A stretch of DNA of 32,183 nt from Sulfuricurvum sp. (GCA_022729795.1 DZBD01000012.1:1-32183), one strand, 5' to 3'; numbered from the stretch's first letter, positions 6,425-21,015 are shown. The notes: generated from the letters alone by a model not told the origin. Made by a program: numbers and translations.

Positions 6425-6447
6425 TCACTAAAATAAATTTTGTATGC

Positions 6448-6487
6448 AAAAAAGGAAGAAATACTTCTGTACTTTCTTCCTTTTTTT
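6448..6487 (+). terminator. Intrinsic terminator after nosZ
   Basis: A 14-bp perfect stem (AAAAAAGGAAGAAA at 6448-6461 with its complement at 6473-6486) ends in a T-run, 24 bases after the nosZ stop. The A/T symmetry would also let it act on the minus strand, but no minus-strand gene ends here. It should give abundant monocistronic nosZ mRNA. Confidence 0.85.
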
Positions 6488-6504
6488 GTTATTTATGTTA
6501 TTCC

Positions 6505-6546
6505 TTGATATGTGTCAAGTTTTTTAAAAAAGCACTCTATTATAAT
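6505..6546 (+). promoter_or_regulatory. FNR-type class II promoter of the nosB operon
   Basis: The box TTGATATGTGTCAA (6505-6518) is followed by a consensus -10 TATAAT (6541-6546), again 29.5 bp from box centre to -10 start. The predicted transcript starts near 6553, 69 nt before nosB. Confidence 0.85.
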
Positions 6547-6562
6547 GTTCAAAACGCAACTA

Positions 6563-6606
6563 AAGTTAAAAATTAAATGTTATTAAAAACGTTTAATTTT
6601 TAACTT
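6563..6606 (+). promoter_or_regulatory. Long hairpin in the nosB 5' leader
   Basis: Perfect 15-bp arms (AAGTTAAAAATTAAA at 6563-6577 and its complement at 6592-6606) can be extended inward by one G-U and three Watson-Crick pairs, giving a stem of about 19 bp with a 6-nt loop. It lies wholly between the predicted transcription start and the ribosome site (AAAAGG at about 6609-6614). It could block or protect the mRNA start, or be a protein operator in DNA. No known riboswitch class is recognised. Confidence 0.6.
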
Positions 6607-6621
6607 ACAAAAGGATTATAT

Positions 6622-7401
6622 ATGCACCCTAGTTTAATAAAAGCAAAGATTTTTGCTACATTGGCCCTGATTATTTTAACATTTTCTTTTACATTTCCAA
6701 TGCTTGCGTTTCATGGAACACTCAACAAAGTTCATGATGGAAAAGGTGAAGAAGTATCTTCTTTGAGCAAAACTGTTTGGAATCTCTACAACCAAGGTAG
6801 ATATAAAAGTGTCACAACTGACAAAGAAGCTCATAACGATTTAGAAAAGATGATTGAAACACAGGCAGAATTTGGACCTTCTTCCCTACCAATCTGGGCA
6901 GTTTCTCTTGAAGCACCCAATTATCCAAAAGAAGCTTTTCCCGAGGGTATACCCGTATATTTTCACTTTGACGGATATAGTGGAGAAGTTCATGAAATGA
7001 ACACCATTAATCACTATGTCGGCATGGATCCTATGTGGGTCGGGGGAACGATAGAGAGAGAAATAGGCATTTATGCTTTACTGGCACTTTCTTTGGGCAT
7101 TGTTTACTTTATTGCTTACAATAACAAAATTTTAAGTTTTTTAATGCTCATTCCTTCTTCATTACCTTTACTTTTTATTGCAGACTATTCTTACTGGCTC
7201 TACTGGTTTGGGCACAACCTCCATGACTGGGGCGCATTTAAAATAAAACCTTTTATGCCTACCGTTTTTGGAGATGGAAAAATTGCTCAGTTTACTACGC
7301 ATTCCTACCCTGCAATTGGTTTTTATATGATATTGGCAATTGGTGTCTTTAGTTTACTTGCTTTTTTTGCAAAACAAAAAGCAACTAAGCAAATACAATA
7401 A
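6622..7401 (+). CDS. nosB: NosB membrane protein
   Basis: This 259-residue protein has one N-terminal TM helix (about 9-31), a periplasmic domain of about 110 residues, and three or four C-terminal TM helices (about 145-250). The long loop with HFDGYSGEVHEMNTINHYVGM is typical of NosB, which follows nosZ in clade II clusters such as that of Wolinella. NosB is needed for N2O respiration in some of these organisms, but its molecular task is not established; quinol oxidation or NosZ maturation have been considered. Its place directly after nosZ and before nosD supports the call. Confidence 0.9.
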   Translation: MHPSLIKAKIFATLALIILTFSFTFPMLAFHGTLNKVHDGKGEEVSSLSKTVWNLYNQGRYKSVTTDKEAHNDLEKMIETQAEFGPSSLPIWAVSLEAPNYPKEAFPEGIPVYFHFDGYSGEVHEMNTINHYVGMDPMWVGGTIEREIGIYALLALSLGIVYFIAYNNKILSFLMLIPSSLPLLFIADYSYWLYWFGHNLHDWGAFKIKPFMPTVFGDGKIAQFTTHSYPAIGFYMILAIGVFSLLAFFAKQKATKQIQ

Positions 7402-7422
7402 TAAATAATTAAAAAACTTTAA

Positions 7423-8640
7423 ATGTTACAAAATTTATTTTTACTTTATTTACTACTGTTTACAACTTTAAGCGCCAATACGCTGCAAGAAGCAATTGAT
7501 AGCGCTCCTGAGGGCTCTATTTTAAAGCTTTCTGCCGGTATTTACAAAGGAGGCATAACCATAAACAAGCCTCTTACGATTCTTGGAATTCAAGAGGGTG
7601 TTGTTATTGATGGGGAAAATAATGGAACCGTTATTGCGATCAAAAGCTCTTATGTCACTTTAAAAAATTTAAAAATTATCGGCAGCGGGGACAGACATGA
7701 AAGTCTTGATTCAGGGATTACTCTTAAAGAAAGTAAAAATTGCGAGATAAGTTACTGCATAATAGATGATTGTCTTTTTGGCATTGATCTTCAAATGGTC
7801 AGTAACTCCATAATTTCTCACAATACGATTACTTCAAAAGATTTTGATTTAGGTCTTCGCGGTGATGGACTGAGACTTTGGTACAGTAACGACAATATCA
7901 TAAAAAAGAACTCCTTAATAAAATCCAGAGACATGGTCGTTTGGTATTCTCATGGCAATGAAATCGTAGAAAACGAGGGCATATACGGTCGTTACTCTTT
8001 GCACTTCATGTATGCCGGTAAAAATTTAGTCAAAAACAATCATTACCGATACAATAGTGTAGGAATATTTTTTATGTATTCTAAAGATACTATCGCTATC
8101 GGCAACACTGTAAAAAGCTCTTTAGGAGCTACAGGAATGGGTATAGGTCTCAAAGAGGTTACAAATTTTAGACTTGAGAATAATACTGTTCTTTACTGTG
8201 CGCAGGGACTTTATATAGACAGATCTCCCTTTGAACCTGACACGCACAACTGGATGATAGGCAATAAAATTCTTTACAATGCAGAAGCCCTTCATTTTCA
8301 TTCACTCAGTGAAAACAATGTGATTAAAGAAAATACGATTATGGGGAATATAGAAGATATTGTCAATGACAGCAGAGGTAGTAAAACAGATGAAAATGAA
8401 ATAGTCGGAAATTACTGGGACAACTATGTAGGATTTGACAGAGACGGCGACAATGTCGGTGACACAACACATAAAGTCTACCAATATGCCGACCAACTCT
8501 GGGTATATAATCCGGATGTAAAATTTTTTTACGGTTCACCGGTAATTTCTTTGCTCAACTTTTTGGCAAAATTAGCTCCTTTTACAAAACCGCTCTTTTT
8601 GCTTGAAGACGAGAAACCAAAAGTCAGGATTGAAGGATAA
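7423..8640 (+). CDS. nosD: NosD, periplasmic beta-helix protein for CuZ assembly
   Basis: The 405-residue product has a signal peptide (MLQNLFLLYLLLFTTLSA) followed by regular short repeats rich in N, I and G (for example GIDLQMVSNSIISHNTI), the CASH/carbohydrate-binding right-handed beta-helix. The NYWDNYVGFDRDGDNVGD motif near residue 330 is highly characteristic of NosD. NosD works with the NosFY ABC transporter to supply the CuZ centre of NosZ in the periplasm. The ribosome site before this ATG is weak, so translation may depend on coupling to nosB, which ends 21 bases upstream. Confidence 0.95.
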   Translation: MLQNLFLLYLLLFTTLSANTLQEAIDSAPEGSILKLSAGIYKGGITINKPLTILGIQEGVVIDGENNGTVIAIKSSYVTLKNLKIIGSGDRHESLDSGITLKESKNCEISYCIIDDCLFGIDLQMVSNSIISHNTITSKDFDLGLRGDGLRLWYSNDNIIKKNSLIKSRDMVVWYSHGNEIVENEGIYGRYSLHFMYAGKNLVKNNHYRYNSVGIFFMYSKDTIAIGNTVKSSLGATGMGIGLKEVTNFRLENNTVLYCAQGLYIDRSPFEPDTHNWMIGNKILYNAEALHFHSLSENNVIKENTIMGNIEDIVNDSRGSKTDENEIVGNYWDNYVGFDRDGDNVGDTTHKVYQYADQLWVYNPDVKFFYGSPVISLLNFLAKLAPFTKPLFLLEDEKPKVRIEG

Positions 8641-8642
8641 AC

Positions 8643-9383
8643 ATGGAAAAAGTACAAACAGATAGAAGAAAATTTGTAGCATATTCTACGCTTGCTATGC
8701 TAGGCTTAGTTCTTGGTGGCGGGATGGTATTGTCTCCCTATACACTTCGAGCTGAAAATAGATTACGCCCTCCCGGTGCAGTCCCTGAGAAACAATTTTT
8801 AGCTTTATGTATAAAATGTGGACAGTGCTTACAGGTTTGCCCTTATCACTCTATTAAATTGGCAGATTTTGTTAGCGGTCACGGTGTTGGAACGCCTTAC
8901 ATAGACGCAAATGAAAGGGGCTGTTATGCATGTAGCGCTGTTCCTTGCGTTTTGGCTTGTCCTAGCGGTGCACTTGATCACCATTGTGAAAAACCTGCAG
9001 ATATTCATATGGGTATAGCAGTTTTGGAATTTCCCGACACCTGTCTAGCCATGAACAACACCCCAATTCATAAGGGCTATAACGCGAAGATGCATGACTT
9101 TACCGACTCCGTGCGAAATGTCACAGAGTTGGAAGAAAAACTTCTCACCAAATTGGACTCTTTTGAGGGCAAACAGTGCACTTTATGTGCAGATATGTGT
9201 CCGCTTGAAAATCCTCTAAGTGCCATTGCTATGGTTCCAAGTGCAAATGGCGGCAACAAACCTGAAGTTTATGATGGATGTATCGGATGCGGTGTTTGCC
9301 AAGAAGTTTGTCCTACAAACACTCCATCTATCGTTGTTAAACCAAGAGTTACATATGCTGCGTTTTACGCAAATCAAAATTAG
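8643..9383 (+). CDS. nosG: NosG, NapG/MauM-type periplasmic ferredoxin
   Basis: The 246-residue protein starts with a twin-arginine-type signal (TDRRKFVAYSTLAML), so it is probably exported folded with its clusters. Four cysteine groups can be seen: CIKCGQCLQVCP, CYACSAVPCVLACP, CTLCADMCP and CIGCGVCQEVCP, each suited to one [4Fe-4S] cluster. NapG-like proteins work with membrane NapH-like partners to move electrons from menaquinol to periplasmic reductases. Here the partner is NosH (10611) and the acceptors are probably the NosC cytochromes and then NosZ. It lies 2 bases after nosD. Confidence 0.94.
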   Translation: MEKVQTDRRKFVAYSTLAMLGLVLGGGMVLSPYTLRAENRLRPPGAVPEKQFLALCIKCGQCLQVCPYHSIKLADFVSGHGVGTPYIDANERGCYACSAVPCVLACPSGALDHHCEKPADIHMGIAVLEFPDTCLAMNNTPIHKGYNAKMHDFTDSVRNVTELEEKLLTKLDSFEGKQCTLCADMCPLENPLSAIAMVPSANGGNKPEVYDGCIGCGVCQEVCPTNTPSIVVKPRVTYAAFYANQN

Positions 9384-9391
9384 GAAATGAA

Positions 9392-10015
9392 ATGAAACCT
9401 TATATTTTAAAATCACACTTTAAGAGTTTAGCAGTGGCTTCCGGTCTTTTACTTTGTATATCCTTCATAGGATGTAGTGACAAACCTGAGGAAAAAAACT
9501 TAACGCAGAACACGTCAGAGAGTGTTCCAAAAATTGAGGTTTCACACAATGAAAACGCAAGAGAGATTAAAGTTCAAACTAAAGCACAAGATGCAAACCA
9601 GAGTAAATCATACTACTATGACTACAATATTAAAAGTGAATACGATGTAAACGCTCAACCGGCAAATGAAGACGCTTCCGTTAGAACCAAGCCAAGAACT
9701 GTTGTTGAGGCGAATATTAATGTACGAAGTCCCTATGAAAATGTGCAAGTATCTATGCTCGTAAATAAACTAAGTAAAAAATTCATACTCAAATGTTCCG
9801 CATGCCATAACGATTATGCTAACGGTATTATCGGTCCATCTCTTCTTACAAAAGATGCTGATTATATTGTGAATAAAATAACGCAATATAAAAGCGGTGA
9901 AAAAACCAACGTCCTCATGAATGACCTCATAAAAATGATGAGTGATGAAGAAATTAAAACATTAGCTGAAGAAATATCGAACTTCAATAAACAAATAAAC
10001 GAAATGAGGAACTAA
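9392..10015 (+). CDS. nosC1: NosC1, lipoprotein cytochrome c
   Basis: The 207-residue precursor has a lipobox (SFIGC) after its hydrophobic N-terminus, so it is probably anchored to a membrane by lipid. A low-complexity linker of about 110 residues leads to a monohaem domain with CSACH at about residue 136, and a later Met-rich stretch (VLMNDLIKMMSDEE) that may hold the axial Met. In Wolinella-type clusters NosC1 and NosC2 carry electrons from the NosGH menaquinol pathway to NosZ. It is followed after 1 base by nosC2, whose haem domain is similar. Confidence 0.88.
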   Translation: MKPYILKSHFKSLAVASGLLLCISFIGCSDKPEEKNLTQNTSESVPKIEVSHNENAREIKVQTKAQDANQSKSYYYDYNIKSEYDVNAQPANEDASVRTKPRTVVEANINVRSPYENVQVSMLVNKLSKKFILKCSACHNDYANGIIGPSLLTKDADYIVNKITQYKSGEKTNVLMNDLIKMMSDEEIKTLAEEISNFNKQINEMRN

Positions 10016-10016
10016 A

Positions 10017-10532
10017 ATGAAAAACATAATTGTAGGATTTGCAACTTTACTAGTTATCGCACTCATGGCTTGGACAGCATCAGGCGGGCGAGCATATCAC
10101 GGCGGTGAAGCGGCAAAAATCATTGCGGATTTTGGAAATGACATGACACAAAATGCTAAAGTAGAACCGGCCGCGACTACCCAAGAAAAAGATGACAGAG
10201 AAAAAGAATCGGACAAACTCGGTGCTCTTCGTGATCAAGCAGGAAATGCAGGGGCATTTAAGGTCTCTCAAGAATATAAAAGTAAATGTTCTTCCTGCCA
10301 CGGAGTGAACGGTTCAGGAGAACAAAATGGCAAAGCGCTTATGGGACCTAAACTATTTGGACAAAGCAGTGAAAAAATTTACCAAAGTTTACTAGATTTT
10401 AAAGACGGCAGAAAAGAGAATATGATTATGAAAGGTCTTTTACTTCAACTTGATGAAGGTGAATTAAAAAGATTTGCGGATGAAATCGGAGAGTTTCCGG
10501 CAAGAGCTAAAGAGATGCAAGAGAGCAACTAA
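10017..10532 (+). CDS. nosC2: NosC2, membrane-anchored cytochrome c
   Basis: The 171-residue protein has an uncleaved-looking N-terminal TM helix (about 3-20), a charged linker (about 40-75) and a C-terminal cytochrome domain with CSSCH near residue 94. The distal MIMKGLLLQLDEGE segment matches the NosC1 and c553 pattern (MKGLMxxMxxxE). It is the second of the paired NosC cytochromes, and its membrane anchor keeps it close to NosH. The tail (10532) and the next gene are separated by 78 bases that hold a palindrome (10564-10581). Confidence 0.88.
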   Translation: MKNIIVGFATLLVIALMAWTASGGRAYHGGEAAKIIADFGNDMTQNAKVEPAATTQEKDDREKESDKLGALRDQAGNAGAFKVSQEYKSKCSSCHGVNGSGEQNGKALMGPKLFGQSSEKIYQSLLDFKDGRKENMIMKGLLLQLDEGELKRFADEIGEFPARAKEMQESN

Positions 10533-10563
10533 AACTCAAGTAAAGCTTTAGTGACTGAATATG

Positions 10564-10581
10564 ATTTGAACTTGTTCAAAT
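10564..10581. promoter_or_regulatory. Perfect 18-bp palindrome upstream of nosH
   Basis: ATTTGAAC-TT-GTTCAAAT has an FNR-like form (TTGAA-N4-TTCAA). No -10 sits at the spacing seen at the other boxes, since the expected place overlaps the nosH start. It may be a weak internal regulator site or a small processing hairpin. I do not call a promoter here. Confidence 0.4.
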
Positions 10582-10610
10582 TATATGAGATTTATGAGTA
10601 GGAGATGGAC

Positions 10611-11516
10611 ATGGATAAATATAACAGCAGAGCAACTATAGGAAAAACAACTTTTTGGTCCACATTTTTTGACACCACAAAAGAGGGAAAATCAAAATTT
10701 AGCTATAGAATGAAAAGATGGATTTTAGTTATAACTATTCATCTTTTATTTTTCTTATCTTTTTTTATTGATTTGCAGATGCTTGAAGGCACTCTTAACG
10801 GTTCAAGATTTTTAGGATTTCACTTAATCGACCCTTTTACTACTTTGGAAGTTTTTTTATCAACCTTCCACATGCCTATAAACATAGTCATAGGTACCAT
10901 TACAATCCTTATAGTCTATCTGCTAGTCGGTGGAAGAACCTACTGTTCTTGGGTCTGTCCGTATGGTTTGCTCAGTGAAATAGGTGAAAAAATTCACAAC
11001 ACTTTAGTGGCAAAAAAAATCATTAAAAGCAGAAAATTTGACCATAGAGTAAGACATATATTTTGGGCAATATTTCTCATTTTATCTTTTACGAGCGGTT
11101 ATTTAGTTTTTGAAACTTTGAACGTCGTCGGTATTTTGAGCAGAGCCATTGCATATGGTTGGAGTCTTGCGCTTATCTGGGTTCTTACCGTGTTTTTGAT
11201 TGAAGTATTTTACTCACGCCGTGCATGGTGTACGTATATATGCCCCATCGGAACGACGTATGGTTATCTAGGCAAAGTCAGTGCACTAAGAGTTGAGTGG
11301 AATGACAACTGCGACCACTGCATGGTGTGTCATGATGTCTGTTTTGAAAACCAAGTACTTGAGATTGTCAAAGCAAAATACGATAAACAAAGAGAAGAAA
11401 AAGGGATTACGAAAGAGTACATCACCGGAAACGACTGTACGCTTTGCGGCAGATGTATAGATGTCTGCCATACAGATGCTCTCAACTTCGACTTTAGACT
11501 TAAAAATTTGGTGTAA
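10611..11516 (+). CDS. nosH: NosH, NapH-type quinol-oxidising membrane ferredoxin
   Basis: The 301-residue protein has about four TM helices (about 35-55, 85-105, 150-170 and 180-200), two CxxxCP motifs (CSWVCP and CTYICP) and two C-terminal ferredoxin motifs (CDHCMVCHDVC and CTLCGRCIDVC), the NapH/NosR-C pattern. NapH-type proteins take electrons from menaquinol and pass them to a NapG-like partner, here NosG. The start at 10611 is preferred to 10605 because GGAG touches the first ATG but lies 6 bases before the second. No full-length NosR flavoprotein is present, as expected for clade II. Confidence 0.93.
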   Translation: MDKYNSRATIGKTTFWSTFFDTTKEGKSKFSYRMKRWILVITIHLLFFLSFFIDLQMLEGTLNGSRFLGFHLIDPFTTLEVFLSTFHMPINIVIGTITILIVYLLVGGRTYCSWVCPYGLLSEIGEKIHNTLVAKKIIKSRKFDHRVRHIFWAIFLILSFTSGYLVFETLNVVGILSRAIAYGWSLALIWVLTVFLIEVFYSRRAWCTYICPIGTTYGYLGKVSALRVEWNDNCDHCMVCHDVCFENQVLEIVKAKYDKQREEKGITKEYITGNDCTLCGRCIDVCHTDALNFDFRLKNLV

Positions 11517-11519
11517 CAG

Positions 11520-12158
11520 ATGATAAAAATTTCTAATCTAACTAAAAAATTCGGTTCCCATATCTCTTTGGATAACCTTAGTTGTGAGTTTCACAAAAAT
11601 GAGTCCATTGCGCTTATGGGAGCAAATGGAGCAGGAAAGACGACGCTTATTCGCAGCATACTCGGCTACTATCATCCAGATATTGGAGAGATTTTAGTCA
11701 ATGGAACAAACCCGATACAAGACAGAGTCAAGGTGCTTCAAGACATTAGCTTTGTCCCGCAATTGCCGCCACCGATTAAACTCAGTTTACATGAGCTGAT
11801 GCAGTACGTAAGCATCAGTGCTCATGTAGAAAAAGAGTTGATTGTGCATTATGCCAATGAGATGAAACTTGACATTAAAGCCAATATGCATAAATCATTT
11901 TTCAAACTAAGCGGTGGAATGAAACAAAAAATGTTGATTGCCATAAGCTTGGCAAAAAACAGCACTATCATTATTTATGATGAGCCTACGGCAAATCTCG
12001 ATCCAAAAGCAAGAGATGATTTTTACAGACTGTTGCAACAAAATGAAGAAGAAAAAGTTCTTTTATTTGTTACGCATAGATTGGAAGAAGTAAAAGATTT
12101 GGTTAACAGACAAATTTATATGGATTTGGGAAGAGTGGTTTGGGATGAAAAAGCTTAA
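11520..12158 (+). CDS. nosF: NosF, ABC transporter ATPase
   Basis: The 212-residue ATP-binding subunit has Walker A GANGAGKTT (about 34-42), signature LSGGMKQKM, Walker B IIIYDEPTANLD and a switch histidine (FVTHR). It is shorter than the roughly 300-residue proteobacterial NosF, lacking a C-terminal extension. With NosY and NosD it forms the ABC system needed for CuZ assembly. It starts 3 bases after nosH and overlaps nosL by 14 bases, so translation is coupled. Confidence 0.93.
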   Translation: MIKISNLTKKFGSHISLDNLSCEFHKNESIALMGANGAGKTTLIRSILGYYHPDIGEILVNGTNPIQDRVKVLQDISFVPQLPPPIKLSLHELMQYVSISAHVEKELIVHYANEMKLDIKANMHKSFFKLSGGMKQKMLIAISLAKNSTIIIYDEPTANLDPKARDDFYRLLQQNEEEKVLLFVTHRLEEVKDLVNRQIYMDLGRVVWDEKA

Positions 12159-12609
12159 ATTTTTATTTTATCTGGGAATATTGTTTATTTTTCTTGGCGG
12201 ATGTAATACCGTAAAGAAAGATTCTGATAATAAATTTAAAGAAAAATCAAGAATTTGTCCACAATGCAATATGGAACTTCCCCCTTCCAATATCCACACC
12301 ACCGTGCTACATGAGGGAAATGAAGAGGAACATTTTGATGATATAGGATGTATGATTTTGTGGTTGGCTAAAAAAAATACCGACATCAACGCAGTCTTGG
12401 CGGAAGTGTTTACCAACGACACGCACAAGTACATAAACGCAGGTGCTGCTCACTACAAAATCAATGAGAAAACTCCTATGCTTTATGGATTTTCTGCCTA
12501 TGAAAATATGCAAGAAGGTTCTATCTCTTATGAAGAGGTTTTTATAAGAATGCGACGCGGTGAACATATGGCAAATCCAAAAATTAGAAAACAGATATTA
12601 GGATACTAG
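12145..12609 (+). CDS. nosL: NosL, copper-chaperone lipoprotein
   Basis: The 154-residue precursor has a lipobox ending at Cys20 (LGGC) and the NosL copper motif C38-PQ-C41-N-M43, followed by the family's HFDDIGCMILWL segment. NosL is a periplasmic lipoprotein that binds Cu(I) and hands it to NosD or apo-NosZ. It overlaps nosF and precedes nosY. It is closest in form to the NosL encoded at 14518-14964, with the metal motif at identical positions and FDDIGCM in both. This is the NosL belonging to the canonical NosDFY system. Confidence 0.94.
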   Translation: MKKLKFLFYLGILFIFLGGCNTVKKDSDNKFKEKSRICPQCNMELPPSNIHTTVLHEGNEEEHFDDIGCMILWLAKKNTDINAVLAEVFTNDTHKYINAGAAHYKINEKTPMLYGFSAYENMQEGSISYEEVFIRMRRGEHMANPKIRKQILGY

Positions 12610-12617
12610 GAAACATT

Positions 12618-13445
12618 ATGAATAATTTACTTTTAATCGCATACTTAGATTTGAAAGAGTCCATCAGAGCAAAATGGTTTGTGGTTTATTCGCTCGTTTT
12701 TGGCGGGATGATCGCCCTCTTTTTTATAGCAGGAGTTACAGAGTCCCAGGTGATGGGTTTTAGCGGTTTGAGCAGACTTCTTTTGATGTATATTCAAATT
12801 ACCATCGTTATTTTACCTATTTTTATACTCATCACAACCGTCAGGTCTATCTCAGGAGACAGAGACAATCACATTTTAGAGTATATGTTATGCTTTCCCA
12901 TCTCTCTTAGACAGTACTACTGGGGAAAAATTATCGGTAGATTTATCACCGTTTATCTGCCTGTACTCTTTGCTATGGTTGTTGCGATTTTTTTTGGTGC
13001 GTTTAAAGGAGCCTCAATTCCATGGAGTATCTTCTTTTTATACACCGGTCTTTTGTTTGCTCTCTCAAGCGCATTTTTAGGCATCGCTTTTTTCATCTCC
13101 TCTTTTGTAAAATCCTCTGAAGTAGCCCTTGGTATTGCGTTTTTTATATGGATATTTTTGCTTGCGTTTATAGATATTGCGCTTATCTCTTTGATGATGC
13201 AACAGAGATTTAACGAAGAGCTTATTATTGTCATAGCTATGCTCAATCCTATGGAAATTTTCAGAGTTGCAGCCATCTCACTTTTTGACCCCGAACTTAC
13301 AGTTATGGGACCGGTTGCGTTTTATATCCTAGACTTTATGAGTCAGACAATTTTTGTTTTGGTTTCTATAGTATACCCCTTCGCAATAGGAGGAGCTTTT
13401 GCCTTTGCAGGTTTTAAAATTTTTGAGAAAAAAGATTTAGTTTAA
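12618..13445 (+). CDS. nosY: NosY, ABC transporter permease
   Basis: The 275-residue membrane protein has six predicted TM helices (about 18-40, 55-80, 105-130, 138-165, 170-190 and 240-265) and a cytosolic GDRDNHILEYMLCFPISLRQYYWGKI segment typical of NosY/ABC2-type permeases. It pairs with NosF. The usual order F-Y-L is changed to F-L-Y. A ribosome site AGGAAAC precedes ATG 12618. Confidence 0.93.
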   Translation: MNNLLLIAYLDLKESIRAKWFVVYSLVFGGMIALFFIAGVTESQVMGFSGLSRLLLMYIQITIVILPIFILITTVRSISGDRDNHILEYMLCFPISLRQYYWGKIIGRFITVYLPVLFAMVVAIFFGAFKGASIPWSIFFLYTGLLFALSSAFLGIAFFISSFVKSSEVALGIAFFIWIFLLAFIDIALISLMMQQRFNEELIIVIAMLNPMEIFRVAAISLFDPELTVMGPVAFYILDFMSQTIFVLVSIVYPFAIGGAFAFAGFKIFEKKDLV

Positions 13446-13456
13446 AAGGAGTTATT

Positions 13457-13927
13457 ATGAGAAAAATTGTTTTAGGAATAGTTATAGCATCGAGTCTTGT
13501 TTTTGGTTTTAGTATGGACTACACAAAAGAGACAAACTGCTTAGTTCGAAATTTAAAGGTTTACGAAGAACCTAAATGGGTAGCAAAAATAGAACTCTCC
13601 AACGCGAAAGAGGTCTTTTTTTCAAGTCCTAAAGCGATGTTTGAGTTTTATTTTCTTCCCGGAAAATGGTACGACCTCGGTGTAAAAAGCGAAAAAGATA
13701 TAAAAGAAATTTTAGTCACGGATTTTTCAAATATGCAAATCGTAAAAGCTAAAAGTTCTTTTTTTGTGTATGGAAGCAATGTAACTTCACCGGGCGGAGA
13801 TGACCTTGTTCCTTTTGCCTCCTACAAAGAAGCCAAAAAATTCGCCAAAGAACATAACGGAAAAAGAGTTTTGAGCTTTCAAGAAGTAAGTGATGCACTT
13901 ATCAGATTATTAAACGGGAGGATATAA
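13457..13927 (+). CDS. NosL-like periplasmic protein lacking the metal motif
   Basis: The 156-residue protein has a Sec signal peptide and a NosL-type fold. It lines up along its length with the NosL domain of the 18152-18883 protein (shared: YxEPKW/YKYPRW, IxEILVTDFxNMQIVKAKSSFFVYGS, LVPFASYKEAKKFAKEH). The CxxCxM site is gone: C28-LV-R31-N-L33 stands where C-x2-C-x-M should be. Copper binding in the usual way is therefore unlikely, and a structural or regulatory partner of the other NosL proteins is possible. GGAG precedes the ATG and the gene follows nosY by 11 bases, so it belongs to the nos operon. Confidence 0.8.
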   Translation: MRKIVLGIVIASSLVFGFSMDYTKETNCLVRNLKVYEEPKWVAKIELSNAKEVFFSSPKAMFEFYFLPGKWYDLGVKSEKDIKEILVTDFSNMQIVKAKSSFFVYGSNVTSPGGDDLVPFASYKEAKKFAKEHNGKRVLSFQEVSDALIRLLNGRI

Positions 13928-14517: not shown

Positions 14518-14964
14518 TTACTTACCTATTTTAACAACTCTTTTGACTACTTCGTTGAAATCGACAATTTCTTCACCTTCTTTGATGCTCTCCTTTGTTT
14601 TATGCGCACTAAAACCATAGGCCATTGGAGTGATGTTTTGCGTGTCATAAAACGCAGTTCTTGCGTTTATCCATTCGCCGGTGCTCAGATCCGTAATCCA
14701 GATAATTGCGCCATCCTTCCACGCAATCTTTTCATCTTCAAACCAAAGCGCCATACAACCTATATCATCAAACATATATATTTTACCGCTCTGAGGTTCT
14801 CTTACCTGCACGGTGTTTTTTCTGTCACTTACAACCATCACACAGCGAGCACACATATCTCTATCCCAATGAACCTCTGCAACATCAGAGACAGATTTAC
14901 GCTCACAGCCGCTAAAAAGCGAACCCAAAACTAAAAAAGAAAGTAAAAATTTATACGATATCAT
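14518..14964 (-). CDS. NosL-type copper lipoprotein (second copy)
   Basis: The 148-residue precursor has a lipobox at Cys20 (LFSGC) and C38-AR-C41-V-M43, then MFDDIGCMALWF, the NosL core. The start at 14964 is chosen over 14976 because GGAG sits 6 bases before this ATG and nothing suitable precedes the other. It is the last gene of the minus-strand operon that holds the LolD/FtsX transporter, 34 bases after the 319-residue membrane protein. It probably handles copper for that second system; whether NosZ is the recipient is unknown. Confidence 0.9.
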   Translation of the reverse strand: MISYKFLLSFLVLGSLFSGCERKSVSDVAEVHWDRDMCARCVMVVSDRKNTVQVREPQSGKIYMFDDIGCMALWFEDEKIAWKDGAIIWITDLSTGEWINARTAFYDTQNITPMAYGFSAHKTKESIKEGEEIVDFNEVVKRVVKIGK

Positions 14965-14998
14965 CGAAAACTCCATTGTGTTAAAATAAAAATTTTTT

Positions 14999-15958
14999 TC
15001 ATAGCCACACTCCGTTTTTGATATAAAAAAACAGCGGGTACAAACTCAGCAGTAAAACATAAAGCCCATTAAACAAAAGTGAGATTTTATAACCTATGTT
15101 CCGACTTGTGTTTGATGCAGGTAAAAGACCTGCGCCAATACCGCTAAAAGTGCCTATAAAAAGTAGGAAATATATCAGATAACCGACATAATAGTAATCA
15201 TTTTGCAAAAAACAAAAAGGACAGTGATGTGTCGGAAGCTGATAAATATACATACCAAAAAATGCTATGAGCGTTATAACGCCGCTAACAATAAAAGAAA
15301 GGTTACTCAGAGCAAAAAGATACTTATTTTTTAAAAGATAAAAGAGCCCTATAAGTACAAAGTTTCCATAAAACACAAATAACAAAACCTCAGTATCTAT
15401 GCGAAAAATATTTGAAACATAAGAGGTCGCCGAACTTGAGTACAAACTTCCGCAACAGCTTACCATTTTGTCCACATCTATGGCACTAAACATGATACCT
15501 TCAAGTACTACTTCGGCTATAAAAAGAAAAAATGCAGCTATAAACAAACCGAATTTTCTTTTCGTATAGGGCTGGTTTTCATCTTGCATATCTGCACGAT
15601 GAAGCATGAGCCAGTAAGCAAATATATAAAGATTTATCACTTTAAGAATGAGAAGATAGGTTCCGTACTGCGTCGCATCAACAACTCCGGCGGCACACAT
15701 TGCACCCGTGAGAACATGAGATATTTTGTCAAGCGTAAAAATAAAAAAGAGAAAAAGCGGCACTTTGATGGCAAAAATATATTTGATAATCGTAGCCGCT
15801 AAAAAGCTCTGCTTTTCTAAGAGATACTGTTTTTGTGTCGTTGCGTTTAAATCCCATTGTAAAAATATTTTCACGCTCAAAACAAAGGCGATTATCGCAA
15901 AAAAAGCAAAAAGTATGTTCAGAATGCAGAGCGTTAAAACTTCAGGAGTCAAAATCAT
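14999..15958 (-). CDS. Polytopic membrane protein with Cys/His motifs, unknown
   Basis: The 319-residue protein has about eight TM helices. Visible cysteines are MCAAG (about 102), VSCCGS (about 172) and HHCPFC (about 251). The last resembles a thiol-redox or metal site at a membrane face, a little like the CPFC motif of DsbB/VKOR proteins, but the overall pattern is not one I can name. It overlaps the ATPase gene by 4 bases and so belongs tightly to the ABC operon. Copper reduction, thiol redox or metal passage would fit the context; none is shown. Confidence 0.75.
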   Translation of the reverse strand: MILTPEVLTLCILNILFAFFAIIAFVLSVKIFLQWDLNATTQKQYLLEKQSFLAATIIKYIFAIKVPLFLFFIFTLDKISHVLTGAMCAAGVVDATQYGTYLLILKVINLYIFAYWLMLHRADMQDENQPYTKRKFGLFIAAFFLFIAEVVLEGIMFSAIDVDKMVSCCGSLYSSSATSYVSNIFRIDTEVLLFVFYGNFVLIGLFYLLKNKYLFALSNLSFIVSGVITLIAFFGMYIYQLPTHHCPFCFLQNDYYYVGYLIYFLLFIGTFSGIGAGLLPASNTSRNIGYKISLLFNGLYVLLLSLYPLFFYIKNGVWL

Positions 15959-16626
15959 AAAACTAAACTTCCATTATGCACTTGTATCTCACGGTCGACA
16001 AAATCAAGACCAAAAAAAAGCGGGTCATGCGTAGCTATGACAATAGTTTTATTGCTAGCTTTCAGCTCTCTGAGCATCTCTATAAAATGAAGGGAAAGCT
16101 TTTCATCGAGATTTGCCGTCGGCTCATCCGCTAAAATTATTTTAGGATTGTTGATGTTTGCGCGGGCTATTGCGGCGCGTTGCTGCTCTCCGCCTGAGAG
16201 GTTACGAACGAGGACATCTTGTTTGTGTTCTATATGAAAGCGCTGCATCACCGACTCTGACATTTGGTGCATACTTTGCGCATCAAGATTTAAAGGCACC
16301 AAAGGAAGTAAAATATTTTCTTTGACACTGAGATTGGGTATGAGATTGTATTTTTGAAATACAAAACCGATGTTATCCCTTCTGTACTCTGAGGAAAAAT
16401 TATCGGGGAGTTTAGATATTTTTTTTGTATCTACCAAAACTTCACCGCTTGTAGGTTTGCTCAGAGCGGCTATGAGTGAGAGTATCGTGCTCTTCCCGCT
16501 TCCGCTTGAGCCTTTTAAAATGACGAGTTCACCCTCTTTGATTTTCAAATTTATGTGAGAGAGCGCTCTCACACTCTCCTTTTTATTAACTTCATATATT
16601 TTTGTTACGTCTATTAGCTCTATCAT
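15955..16626 (-). CDS. LolD/MacB-class ABC ATPase
   Basis: The 223-residue ATP-binding subunit has Walker A GSSGSGKST, signature LSGGEQQRAAIARA, Walker B IILADEPTANLD and a switch histidine (VIATHD). The Q-loop region FVFQKYNLIPNLSVKENI is typical of the LolD/MacB/FtsE class, which drive mechanotransmission rather than transport through the membrane. The gene touches the FtsX-type permease gene by one base. It is not a NosF, which belongs to a different ABC class. Confidence 0.9.
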   Translation of the reverse strand: MIELIDVTKIYEVNKKESVRALSHINLKIKEGELVILKGSSGSGKSTILSLIAALSKPTSGEVLVDTKKISKLPDNFSSEYRRDNIGFVFQKYNLIPNLSVKENILLPLVPLNLDAQSMHQMSESVMQRFHIEHKQDVLVRNLSGGEQQRAAIARANINNPKIILADEPTANLDEKLSLHFIEMLRELKASNKTIVIATHDPLFFGLDFVDREIQVHNGSLVL

Positions 16627-17831
16627 TATCGTATTACCTCGTCTGCTTCAAGTGTAGCTACCTTCCATGATGGCAAAATAGTTGCCGCCACATAAATAGG
16701 AACACTTAAAAAGAAGACCAAAAAGAGCGTCTGCGTGTCAAAAACAAAGGGAAGTTCAAAACTTGTTTTAAGCTCAGAATAGCCGATAAAGACATTTCTT
16801 AAAAGCGGTGCCTGGAAAATATAGACAAAGGCAAACGCAAACCCTATTCCTAGCACATAGGCAAAAAATGAAAGGATAAAAGATTCATAAAATTTTTCTT
16901 TAAGCACATCATCAACCCGCCAACCTATGGCTTTTAAAATACCTATTTCTCTTTTTTCTTCGCTGCTTAATCCGCTTGCTTTGTCATACACAATCATAAA
17001 AAAAGTGAAGAGGCAAACAATAAAAAGCGCCAAAAATATCCCGCTTTTATAATCAAAAATATTTTGATAACTTACCTGTAAGTCTTGGTTTGTAATCACT
17101 CTGCACTCAGGATACATGAGCCTTATTTTTGAAGCAATAGTGTTTATCTCCTCAGGGTTTACAACTTTAACAACTATATCCGTTGCTTTTGTCTGCTGTA
17201 TATCAAATATTTCTCTTACCTCGTCTTTTGACATAACTATCATATCGTTGGATTCGAGCTGGGTATCTGCATCAAATACTCCGGCAATATTAACTTTTTT
17301 GAGAGTTCCCTCAGACTTGATAAAATTAAAATACTGCTTATAATAATTACGCGACATATTCTCTTTTACCCCCTGCCCGACTATCATGGAAGGAATATTC
17401 TCTTCATTGTTAAAATCGAATTTTTGCACTATTTTCTCAAGAGAGTTTTTATATTGATTTTCATATTCATCGACTCCCACAAGAGTAAAATTTACCCCTG
17501 CGTTTTGAAAATAGTAATAACCCCACACTCTCGCAACTGCGTCGCTTACGCCTGCTATGGAGAGTATCTCATCCACGGCACTTACGTCCATGTCGTCTTG
17601 TCTTCCTGCTTTGATTTTTTGAACTATGATTTGAGGAAGTGCTTCAAGAGTGCTCTCTAGTTCATATTTTATGGAGTTGGTTATAAAAAATACCGATGCC
17701 AAAAGAAAGGTCAAAAAGGTAAAAATACTCAAAATAAAAAAGTTTTTGTATTTTTGTCGCAAAATCGCACTGAGTGCATACTCTATCAAGTAGATATTTA
17801 AAACACTCTGCAACCATGTTTTATTTTTCAT
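16626..17831 (-). CDS. FtsX/MacB-type ABC permease
   Basis: The 401-residue protein has the type VII ABC layout: one N-terminal TM (about 30-52), a large periplasmic domain of about 210 residues, and three C-terminal TM helices (about 265-285, 310-335 and 365-385) with the conserved cytosolic SSEEKREIGILKAIGWR segment. Such permeases transmit ATP hydrolysis to periplasmic partners, extracting lipoproteins or activating envelope proteins. Its neighbours are NosL-type proteins, so a lipoprotein copper chaperone is a plausible client; this is inference. Confidence 0.9.
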   Translation of the reverse strand: MKNKTWLQSVLNIYLIEYALSAILRQKYKNFFILSIFTFLTFLLASVFFITNSIKYELESTLEALPQIIVQKIKAGRQDDMDVSAVDEILSIAGVSDAVARVWGYYYFQNAGVNFTLVGVDEYENQYKNSLEKIVQKFDFNNEENIPSMIVGQGVKENMSRNYYKQYFNFIKSEGTLKKVNIAGVFDADTQLESNDMIVMSKDEVREIFDIQQTKATDIVVKVVNPEEINTIASKIRLMYPECRVITNQDLQVSYQNIFDYKSGIFLALFIVCLFTFFMIVYDKASGLSSEEKREIGILKAIGWRVDDVLKEKFYESFILSFFAYVLGIGFAFAFVYIFQAPLLRNVFIGYSELKTSFELPFVFDTQTLFLVFFLSVPIYVAATILPSWKVATLEADEVIR

Positions 17832-18162
17832 TTTTTTCCCCTGCTGCGTTTACTTGTAAAATATGTGAATGTGAAATAGTATAAGTAGAGGGAAAATACT
17901 CCAATAAACCTCCATCATCTTTGTAAATAGAAAAAATCGTACTCAAACTTCTATGTCTGACATACGAAGCCTCTGTAGAAATGGCAAGGTCGGGGAGTCC
18001 TGAGAGTTTTACAAAAGCAAGCTTTTTGTCGAGTAGCTGCTCATGATGGATTTGCATACTATATATATAGCCCAACTCTGTGGCAATCAGCACAAAAAGT
18101 GCACAAAAAAGATAAAAAGCACTCCGTACTTTTTTTGTGTAATTCCCAAATTTATTCATCAA
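17821..18162 (-). CDS. Single-TM small protein, unknown
   Basis: The 113-residue protein has a charged N-terminus, one TM helix (about 14-36) and an outward-facing domain with several His residues (IHHEQ, RHRS, ISHSH). It overlaps both the upstream NosL-domain gene and the FtsX permease gene by 11 bases each, so it is surely part of the operon. I recognise no family. The histidines would allow metal contact, but no defined motif is seen. The C-terminus after ILQVN is short and polar. Confidence 0.7.
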   Translation of the reverse strand: MMNKFGNYTKKVRSAFYLFCALFVLIATELGYIYSMQIHHEQLLDKKLAFVKLSGLPDLAISTEASYVRHRSLSTIFSIYKDDGGLLEYFPSTYTISHSHILQVNAAGEKNEK

Positions 18163-18883
18163 GTTTATATACTTCTTCTTGGGTTATATTTTCAAATTGC
18201 TTAATTTTACTGCCTTTGTGATCTTTAAAAAATATTTTAGCATCTGCTTCATTTTCAAAAGGAATAAGCTCATTTCCCATAGGCCCATATGCATCGCTAC
18301 CTAGCACATAGTAAGCTTTTTTGGCATCAATCGCTCTTTGGGAATAATAATCGGTCACTAAAATTTTTGCTATATCACTTTTATCTTTGATGGCGTAGTT
18401 TCCCCAGCCTTGAGGATTAAAATAAAACTTGAGTAAATCTTTTACACCGTCAAAAGAGTAGTGTTTTTCCTGAGTATTCTCCACATAAAAAATCTGTGCC
18501 GCCCATCTTGGGTATTTGTACGTAAACATACCGCACACGGGACATTTTTCATCTTGAGTTACGGTGATATGAGAGTGAGAGACTTCTTTATTTGAACTTT
18601 TTTTAAGATTCCAAACATAAAGACAAAGCGCTTCAAAATGCTGCGTTTTTAGGGGTTGGCACTTTTCCTTCAAAGCAATTTGCAACTCTTGCATTGAAGT
18701 ATAAGTATCTAGCGCTATATCCTGCGGACAATTTTTTTCAAACACTTTTTTACCCATGGTATAAAGTTTTTTGTCTTTAAGAACTTGATGCGTAGAGTCC
18801 GAATTTTCCAAGCTCTCTGCATTTGCACTATAAACGCAACAAGCTACAATGACAAAAAAAGTCAATATAAATCTTTGAATCAT
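18152..18883 (-). CDS. NosL-domain protein with N-terminal haem-less cytochrome-like domain
   Basis: The 243-residue precursor has a signal peptide (about 1-22), then a helical domain (about 38-95) with GKKVFEKNC52 and C75 and the ending FEALCLYVWNLKK. This looks like a small cytochrome c fold but has no CxxCH. A NosL domain follows from about 110 with C114-PV-C117-G-M119. The family function is periplasmic Cu(I) binding. The N-terminal domain is related to the C-terminal end of the next-upstream protein (18954). It is in the ABC operon, 70 bases downstream of that gene. Confidence 0.82.
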   Translation of the reverse strand: MIQRFILTFFVIVACCVYSANAESLENSDSTHQVLKDKKLYTMGKKVFEKNCPQDIALDTYTSMQELQIALKEKCQPLKTQHFEALCLYVWNLKKSSNKEVSHSHITVTQDEKCPVCGMFTYKYPRWAAQIFYVENTQEKHYSFDGVKDLLKFYFNPQGWGNYAIKDKSDIAKILVTDYYSQRAIDAKKAYYVLGSDAYGPMGNELIPFENEADAKIFFKDHKGSKIKQFENITQEEVYKLDE

Positions 18884-18953
18884 TCTTTTTCTCGCTTTTT
18901 TATGTTTTTAGATTGTAGTCTCTATGATTTTAAACCTACGGGGCATAGTGCAT

Positions 18954-19682
18954 TTATCTTTTATATAGATAAAGACCCACTGCCTGAAGTTGTTTTTCAT
19001 CAAGTTTCTCGCACAATTTTTGCTCTTTAATAAATGTTTTCGCCTCAGCCGTTGAAGCAAAGAGAATATCTGTTTTTTGACACATTTTGTTGTATATCAT
19101 CTCACCTTTTTGCCCTGCCGTCGCCTGATTTTCACTAACCATCATCATCTCTTTTTCAAACCCTTGAGAAGCCCTTATATAAGCTTCTTCAAAGCCCATC
19201 ATCTCACCGCCAAACTCTTTGACAAAGACCTCTGCATCGGCTTTTTTAGCAAAAGCATATTTACTCACCATACTCATAGTTCCTTTTTTGGAGCTTCCCA
19301 CAACATAAGTAGCGCTTTGGGCATCTATAAACTTTAGCGACGTAACATCTACGACCTGAATATCTTTCAAATCTGCTTTGTTTTGAATCTTATCTTCTAC
19401 TAAGCAGTGAAGAGAACAGTATTGTTTTGTGTGCCCTTCATGGAGAGCGGCATGATTCGTTTTGTAAAACATCGGTAAATTCATACCGCACAAAGGGCAG
19501 TAGAGCTTGTTCTTGGAATCTTGTAAAATTGTTGCCTCATCCATAGCAACACTTTGAAACATTTTGGCATTTTTCATCTTTTGAGGTGCTTCTTCTTTTA
19601 CCTCTGCATAAGCCGTGCCACCAAGCAAAGACAAACAAACAAATATTTTACAAACAAACTTTCCTAAACCTTCTCTTTTCAT
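18954..19682 (-). CDS. NosL-domain protein with C-terminal haem-less cytochrome-like domain
   Basis: The 242-residue precursor starts with a signal peptide, then a NosL domain with C62-PL-C65-G-M67 and further His/Cys residues (HAALHEGHTKQYCSLHC) that may extend the metal site. After the NosL domain ends (about 170) there is a short helical region (about 195-242): GEMIYNKMC, a second Cys (KLCEKL) and QLQAVGLYLYKR. The same pattern heads the 18152 protein. It is the first gene of the NosL/ABC operon. Copper delivery in the periplasm is inferred. Confidence 0.85.
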   Translation of the reverse strand: MKREGLGKFVCKIFVCLSLLGGTAYAEVKEEAPQKMKNAKMFQSVAMDEATILQDSKNKLYCPLCGMNLPMFYKTNHAALHEGHTKQYCSLHCLVEDKIQNKADLKDIQVVDVTSLKFIDAQSATYVVGSSKKGTMSMVSKYAFAKKADAEVFVKEFGGEMMGFEEAYIRASQGFEKEMMMVSENQATAGQKGEMIYNKMCQKTDILFASTAEAKTFIKEQKLCEKLDEKQLQAVGLYLYKR

Positions 19683-20172: not shown

Positions 20173-20430
20173 TTATGGATGCAAGGGAAAATAATAAGCC
20201 ACTCCGATTAAACTGAGGACAATCATGAGCCACAGTGTGGGAATGAGTCTGTATTTTAGCGAAACTTCGCGTAAATCCATAAAATAATCAATCACCAACT
20301 GCCCTTTTATAAAGGTAGTTAGAAGCAAAAGTGCTATAAAAAAAGAACTCGTAATTTTGAACCAACCTACAAGAAAAGCAAACATACTTAACAAAACCAA
20401 CACCATCCATATACTTGTAATCGTACGCAT
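20173..20430 (-). CDS. NorF-like / cytochrome oxidase subunit IV-type protein
   Basis: The 85-residue protein has three TM helices (about 6-25, 28-45 and 62-82), with KGQLVIDYFMDLR between the second and third, the pattern of prokaryotic COX4/NorF small subunits. NorF accompanies NorE in some denitrifiers and supports NO reductase activity; its precise role is not settled. It starts 3 bases after the NorE-like gene, so the two are one unit. The assignment rests on size, topology and neighbours. Confidence 0.8.
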   Translation of the reverse strand: MRTITSIWMVLVLLSMFAFLVGWFKITSSFFIALLLLTTFIKGQLVIDYFMDLREVSLKYRLIPTLWLMIVLSLIGVAYYFPLHP

Positions 20431-20433
20431 TTG

Positions 20434-21015
20434 CTACCTTATAATGTAGATGAGGACAAACAGCACTATCCACAATAAATCTACCATGTGCCAATAAGAT
20501 GCCCCGCTCTCAAGCCCTGTATGCTCTTGTTGCGTGTAGCCGCCCTGCTTTGTTTTTTCGTACAAATTATACAAGATGATGACACCTAAAAGCACATGCA
20601 AAAAATGAAAAATAGTCAAAACAAAGTAAAACATAAAAAAAGTATTAGTACTTAAGTTAAGTCCTTGTGCGTATTTTCCTGAGAATTCAACCATTTTAAT
20701 CACTAAAAAAACACTACCTAAGCTCATAGCTCCTAAAAGGTAAAAAGATGCCTCTTTAATGGCTTCTTTTTCTTTCATGCGTTTGATTGTCTGCACGGCT
20801 CTCACCACGAGCCAACTGCTTGTTATCAAAAGAAGCGTATTTATAAAGCCTGCTCTTTGGTCTAATAATAACTGAGACTCATTAAACAGAACAACATCTA
20901 AGCGCCTTGAATAGGCGTAGCCCAAGAAGAAAGCTCCGAAGGTAACAAGTTCTATGTAAATTATAATCCAAATGCCAAAATCACCCGGCGGATACGGTTT
21001 TTTTAAAGTTTTCAT
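20434..21015 (-). CDS. norE: NorE-like haem-copper oxidase subunit III family protein
   Basis: The 193-residue protein has five TM helices and the subunit III family signatures: PPGDFGIWIIIYIELVTFGAFF at the N-terminus, FHFLHVLLG in the fourth TM and SGASYWHMVDLLWIVLF at the end. At about 190 residues it is the NorE size rather than the seven-TM CoxC. NorE is associated with cNOR and proposed to aid its assembly or stability. It is transcribed away from norC across a palindrome that is a candidate Rrf2 operator. Confidence 0.88.
   Translation of the reverse strand: MKTLKKPYPPGDFGIWIIIYIELVTFGAFFLGYAYSRRLDVVLFNESQLLLDQRAGFINTLLLITSSWLVVRAVQTIKRMKEKEAIKEASFYLLGAMSLGSVFLVIKMVEFSGKYAQGLNLSTNTFFMFYFVLTIFHFLHVLLGVIILYNLYEKTKQGGYTQQEHTGLESGASYWHMVDLLWIVLFVLIYIIR

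Follow-up and report, generated by a model that had tools for sequence, protein, structure and literature searches.

The closest described analogue of the gene set reported here is FetMP-FetABCDEF, an iron uptake system of Campylobacter jejuni in which FetA carries a DUF2318 domain, FetB and FetC are FtsX-type permeases, FetD is an ATPase, and FetE and FetF are thioredoxins (PMC10783030). Deletions of fetA-D impair growth, most strongly at low iron, and the mechanism of the system is unsolved (PMC10783030). The present set lies at positions 14,518 to 19,682 of a stretch of 32,183 nucleotides from Sulfuricurvum sp. (GCA_022729795.1 DZBD01000012.1:1-32183; the window), where an operon joins a LolD-like ATP-binding cassette (ABC) ATPase, an FtsX-type permease and MP319, a membrane protein with eight transmembrane (TM) helices, to proteins of the NosL family. 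It adjoins the genes for NosZ, the enzyme that breaks down the greenhouse gas nitrous oxide. Because it always occurs in genomes with NosL and stands beside two different copper enzymes in relatives, the set probably encodes a copper-loading device. At a probability of roughly 0.55, I read it as a machine powered by ATP that either charges NosL chaperones with copper or takes copper off them, in the service of NosZ, MccA and probably further cuproenzymes.

The likeness to FetABCDEF lies in the combination of a metal-binding periplasmic protein, a cysteine-rich 8-TM protein and an FtsX-type ABC transporter. However, FetABCDEF has two permeases and thioredoxins whereas the present set has one permease and no thioredoxins, MP319 has no Pfam match to the FetA domain (DUF2318/FtrD-like, PF10080), FetB and FetC fall in other clades of the permease tree, and the place held there by the iron proteins FetM and P19 is held here by NosL. 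LolCDE shares the fold class of permease and ATPase, but here there is a single permease gene, with MP319 and a small protein in addition, and the NosL partners encoded upstream of the permease mostly lack a lipobox. MacAB-TolC shares the type VII permease fold (5gko_A, 5nik_J), but here the ATPase is not fused to the permease, no MacA-like gene lies in the operon, and a separate MacAB-like set is present in the genome. Finally, NosDFY-NosL is also an ABC machine that works with NosL on the copper sites of NosZ, although NosY and NosD belong to other families and the present set comes on top of an already complete nos cluster and occurs in mcc contexts as well.

The gene set is undescribed. 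A literature search on NosL with FtsX or MccL returned nothing on it, and the only earlier mention found in the literature searched is a five-gene insertion with an ABC permease and an ATPase between nosL and nosY of Sulfurospirillum cavolei, noted in passing (PMC4794192). This insertion is very probably the same gene set; no analysis or function is given there.

Distribution of the set and its NosL partners

Among 347 Campylobacterota genomes, drawn evenly across the phylum, 136 encode MP319, and the same 136, no more and no fewer, encode the permease. Every one of them encodes NosL, which bears out the tie to copper-chaperone NosL proteins proposed from the window alone, and NosL is absent from 187 of the 211 genomes without the set (nosZ is present in 20 of the other 24). 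The identical distribution across 136 genomes, the universal presence of NosL and the link to MccA described below are the strongest facts of this study. Furthermore, MP319-LolD-FtsX-small gene-NosL is the recurring gene order of an initial group of 60 loci and of most of 80 further loci, which came from named records of mainly Sulfurimonas, Sulfurovum, Sulfurospirillum and Arcobacter-type genomes; recurrence in dozens of genomes is far more than chance would produce. In a contig scan, the best 80 of 568 relatives were all titled either as Campylobacterota or as generic metagenome-assembled genomes, and the plasmids scanned gave no match to MP319. One or more unrelated open reading frames (ORFs) stand between LolD and FtsX in six loci (L038, L110, L120, L123, L126 and L132) and are possible insertions. 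A functional link to neighbouring M48 protease, prmC and ftsZ genes was considered and set aside, the arrangement being judged a fixed location beside housekeeping genes in the genus.

In 104 of 124 loci, one of the three genes upstream of the permease encodes NosL, and in 59 of these loci it is the double-domain form. Even where MP319-LolD and FtsX fall on separate contigs (G177), NosL remains beside the permease. The NosL lipoprotein type of 14518-14976, for its part, adjoins MP319 in many relatives. Of the NosL genes that precede the permease, only 4 of 116 have a lipobox-like signal, compared with 41 of 70 downstream of MP319. In 84 of 126 loci the motif of the small membrane protein precedes FtsX, compared with its presence in 17 of 1060 random windows. 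Of 363 NosL domains encoded across the loci, 72 are without the CxxC(x)M motif and point to a NosL subtype that does not have the usual copper site; in the window, the NosL-family gene that follows nosY (13457-13927) has likewise lost its CxxCGM motif (TNCLVRN). In Paracoccus, NosL binds Cu(I) and is required for NosZ at low copper (PMC6530538). For the NosL protein SMUL_3232, which is induced in pyruvate-grown S. multivorans (PMC6242987), no link to this gene set could be established.

The operon and its surroundings comprise the following features:

14518..14976, minus strand: NosL-type lipoprotein, 152 aa; lipobox LFSGC, CARCVM motif; Pfam NosL 20.4 bits, under the 24-bit cut-off
14999..15958, minus strand: MP319, 8-TM membrane protein of no known family; no Pfam or NCBIfam match; examined by alignments and a structure model
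15955..16626, minus strand: LolD-like ABC ATPase, 223 aa; ABC_tran 125 bits; best NCBIfam model LolD, 194 bits
16626..17831, minus strand: FtsX/LolCE-type ABC permease, 401 aa, with a large periplasmic domain; Pfam FtsX (PF02687) 53.7 bits
17821..18162, minus strand: small membrane protein with a single N-terminal TM helix; conserved motif GLPDLAISTEAxYVRHRS; no Pfam or NCBIfam match
18152..18883, minus strand: NosL243, with signal peptide, haem-less cytochrome c-like segment and NosL domain (CPVCGM); NosL 121 bits
18954..19682, minus strand: NosL242, with signal peptide, NosL domain (CPLCGM) and a C-terminal linker segment as in NosL243; NosL 66.6 bits
19750..20163, minus strand: Rrf2-family (Fe-S type) regulator by Pfam/NCBIfam; 67-bp gap to the operon
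20173..21015, minus strand: cox4_pro and cox3 (norF/norE-like), nor accessory genes by Pfam
3827..13927, plus strand: clade II nos cluster, nosZ-B-D-G-C1-C2-H-F-L-Y plus one more NosL gene; lies convergent to the operon and is probably served by it

The sequence-only reading had described seven packed minus-strand genes, most with overlapping ends and three of them for NosL-type proteins, beside a canonical nos set that was already complete. All seven ORFs were recovered at 14518-19682; neighbouring genes overlap by 4, 1, 11 and 11 bp at four of the six junctions and are 22 and 70 bp apart at the others, and the canonical nosD-G-C1-C2-H-F-L-Y set is indeed complete at 7.4-13.9 kb, converging on the operon. 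NosL243 and NosL242 score above the cut-off of the NosL family (PF05573) and carry the CxxC(x)M motif, but the lipoprotein falls below the cut-off. One correction applies to the description of the NosL proteins: NosL242 and NosL243 match overlapping N- and C-terminal halves, respectively, of the double-domain NosL of many relatives, and look like two halves of such a protein. The two share the haem-less cytochrome c-like linker segment, and each has its own signal peptide. Since the listed TTG start of the small protein directly precedes an ATG, the ATG at 18159 is the likelier start. The Rrf2 regulator gene is likely co-transcribed with the operon here, and both it and the cox4_pro/cox3 genes lie outside the conserved core; standing upstream on the same strand, the regulator and the norE/norF-like genes could tie the operon to nitric oxide signalling in this genome.

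The transporter and MP319

The machine is a type VII ABC transporter (MacB/LolCDE class) with a membrane partner of no known family. The permease is of FtsX type: it has four TM helices, and a large domain follows TM1 on the periplasmic side, the arrangement that defines the class; its structure model (predicted local distance difference test, pLDDT, 83.3) places the periplasmic region at about residues 65-257. Compared with known structures by VIA, the model gave Z 21.8 to 5xu1_M (root-mean-square deviation 5.4, 360 aligned) and Z 21.6 to LolE chains; BceAB and HrtBA also belong to the type VII fold. In the permease tree, the permeases of the set form one clade (100/99), apart from FetB, FetC, the MacB of the same genome and LolCE. 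The predicted fold places the permease in type VII, and the earlier view of a MacB/LolD-class transporter distinct from NosDFY is upheld. Its nearest paralogue within the same genome is another FtsX-type permease (L191; G000 C75:639-2522), whose neighbour, resembling outer-membrane lipoprotein sorting proteins, looks truncated. The ATPase has intact Walker A (GSSGSGKST), signature (LSGGEQQR) and Walker B (IILADEP) motifs. In four genomes (G186, G010, G291 and G315) the permease frame contains one internal stop, which may mark decaying copies or sequence errors.

MP319 has no Pfam match at an E-value of 0.1 and no NCBIfam match. In alignments of 34 diverse and 72 closer sequences, Met87, Cys88, Cys168, Cys169, His244, Cys246 and Cys249 are invariant; the last three belong to an invariant HxCPFC motif, in which Phe248 is sometimes tyrosine, and Cys168 and Cys169 form an invariant CC motif. 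The structure model (pLDDT 82.7) has eight long helices and, by helix count, brings the three cysteine loops to one face, the HxCPFC loop itself being modelled at low confidence. This face is poorer in lysine and arginine in 32 of the 34 sequences with four flanking residues included, and in 21 of the 34 with the flanks left out, which suggests that it is periplasmic. Thus, as modelled, the Cys/Met/His cluster probably faces the periplasm. A Foldseek search of the PDB found no match to the MP319 fold at an E-value under 0.5 and VIA returned only generic helical bundles, so the fold is left without assignment. A sequence repeat between the two halves of MP319 was sought with hhalign and none was found.

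Copper enzymes and candidate functions

The earlier expectation that the set would track clade II nosZ holds only in part. Of the 109 genomes with nosZ, 86 carry the set and 23 do not, but a further 50 carry the set without nosZ, and a role confined to NosZ is excluded. Among the 86 genomes that carry the set and nosZ, at least 21 have the two within 21 kb of each other, a proximity with p of about 1e-17 against random placement, to be taken only as a guide. On the MP319 tree, linkage to nos needs about nine changes, so the association has been repeatedly made or lost; in one genome (G206), the nos-linked copy and an unlinked one are nearly identical. Two genomes carry nosZ split into two pieces (G167 C1:870527-874421, and G238 C15), and the gap in the former would fit an insertion such as that known in the Wolinella type strain.

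The second enzyme, not foreseen from the window, is MccA, the octaheme sulfite reductase. A locus with the set (L064) lies with an operon for a multihaem cytochrome, an FKBP-type isomerase, a ferredoxin-like, an NrfD-like and a ccsBA-type protein, the content expected of mcc, and I take it to be mcc on that ground; the name MccA rests on gene content and does not come from similarity to any named MccA sequence. The set is present in all 51 genomes with close relatives of this MccA, and in all 46 with both on one contig the two are 9.3-13.3 kb apart; in four others the permease stands about 8.5 kb from mccA. The mcc-linked copies of MP319 form one clade (98/94). MccA accounts for 12 of the 50 genomes that carry the set without nosZ, and the outcome that would have spoken against the earlier idea, a set common in genomes with no nosZ and no other cuproenzyme link, was not observed. 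A title cited in PMC6682613 (Hermann et al. 2015) describes MccA as an enzyme of haem c and copper. Another octaheme type resembling MccA, with 47-53% identity, is present in 40 genomes (such as G038 and G192), of which seven carry the set; as this distant type is mostly without it, its copper supply, if any, must differ.

How might such a machine work? In the reading I favour, an inner-membrane type VII ABC machine would serve periplasmic copper chaperones. ATP hydrolysis by the LolD-like ATPase would move the periplasmic domain of the permease, which is probably a dimer, and the force may act directly on the copper step, whether loading or release. MP319, as a putative member of the same complex, would use its periplasmic cluster of five cysteines, one methionine and one histidine to hold Cu(I), or to keep Cu(I) and the chaperones reduced. 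Copper would be exchanged between this complex and two forms of NosL, the soluble double-domain protein and the lipoprotein, which would pass it to apo-enzymes, that is, to NosZ here, to MccA in mcc operons and to other cuproenzymes where neither is present. The suggestion that the operon acts on copper supply to NosZ or another cuproenzyme gains from the linkage to NosL, nos and mcc.

Several observations weigh against this account. There are 32 set-carrying genomes without nosZ or any mccA match, all with NosL, and while all 32 match the model of cbb3 oxidase subunit I (one by below-cut-off fragments only), cbb3 was scored only in set-carrying genomes and so does not discriminate. Four copies (L066, L070, L084 and L091) have no adjoining NosL, with NosL elsewhere in the genome. 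The set is not essential for NosZ or MccA, since 23 genomes with nosZ and 33 of the 40 with the distant MccA are without it. The genomes are related, so the p-values overstate independence. Finally, binding of Cu(I) by MP319 and the adjacent NosL proteins is a prediction, and the cysteines of MP319 could serve thiol redox instead of copper binding. A periplasmic thiol-redox machine, in which disulfide exchange by MP319 (CPFC, CC) and the ABC transporter keep the cysteines of NosL or client proteins reduced and support copper only indirectly, is rather unlikely but is the alternative I take most seriously: the HxCPFC and CC motifs are conserved throughout, genes of the DsbD_2 family stand next to some copies, and FetABCDEF combines an 8-TM cysteine-rich protein, an FtsX-type ABC transporter and thioredoxins in what its authors model as a reductant relay (PMC10783030). 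However, no thioredoxin gene recurs in the conserved neighbourhood, and the invariant Met87 and His244, together with the universal NosL partner, suggest copper ligands.

The type VII class itself invites other functions. BceAB and HrtBA share the fold and Crp/Fnr-type regulators adjoin many copies, so the machine might sense or remove surplus periplasmic copper, as BceAB-like type VII transporters do for antibiotics; yet placement in nos and mcc operons suits supply better than detoxification and no efflux partner or copper regulator lies next to the operon here, which makes copper stress improbable. Marginally less probable still is a Lol-like device that extracts NosL lipoproteins or moves them between membranes, one of the roles first suggested for the operon. 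The LolE-like predicted fold, the best ATPase score (LolD) and the lipoprotein gene at 14518 favour it, but there is a single permease gene, the NCBIfam cut-offs are far from reached (LolD 194 against 307.75 bits, LolCE 42.5 against 362.45 bits), and MP319 would have no role. A LolCE-type gene elsewhere in the genome adjoins lolA and secA, so lipoprotein release has its own gene, and together with the rarity of lipoboxes upstream of the permease this disfavours the idea. A haem- or cytochrome-related device seems the least likely of all. NosZ of Campylobacterota has a c-type haem domain (a C-terminal CXXCH here), MccA is multihaem, ccsBA-type genes are found near mcc copies and a transporter of this class, HrtBA, is a haem exporter, but NosL, the partner that is always present, belongs to a family of copper chaperones and is not a haem protein.

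At this point, copper loading of NosL chaperones remains the reading I prefer. I would go further only tentatively, and with more doubt than belief: MP319 may represent a novel family of copper proteins of the membrane and, together with the type VII ABC transporter, form the first ATP-driven Cu(I) loader of soluble periplasmic chaperones, shared by the unrelated enzymes NosZ and MccA. The route of copper to these enzymes in Campylobacterota is not settled, and nitrous oxide reduction suffers under copper scarcity. A conserved ABC machine tied to NosL would offer a defined, deletable candidate for the copper step in nitrous oxide consumers with clade II NosZ. If the reading is right, copper handling would join the tasks of type VII ABC transporters, and the set would be a copper counterpart to the iron-linked FetABCDEF.

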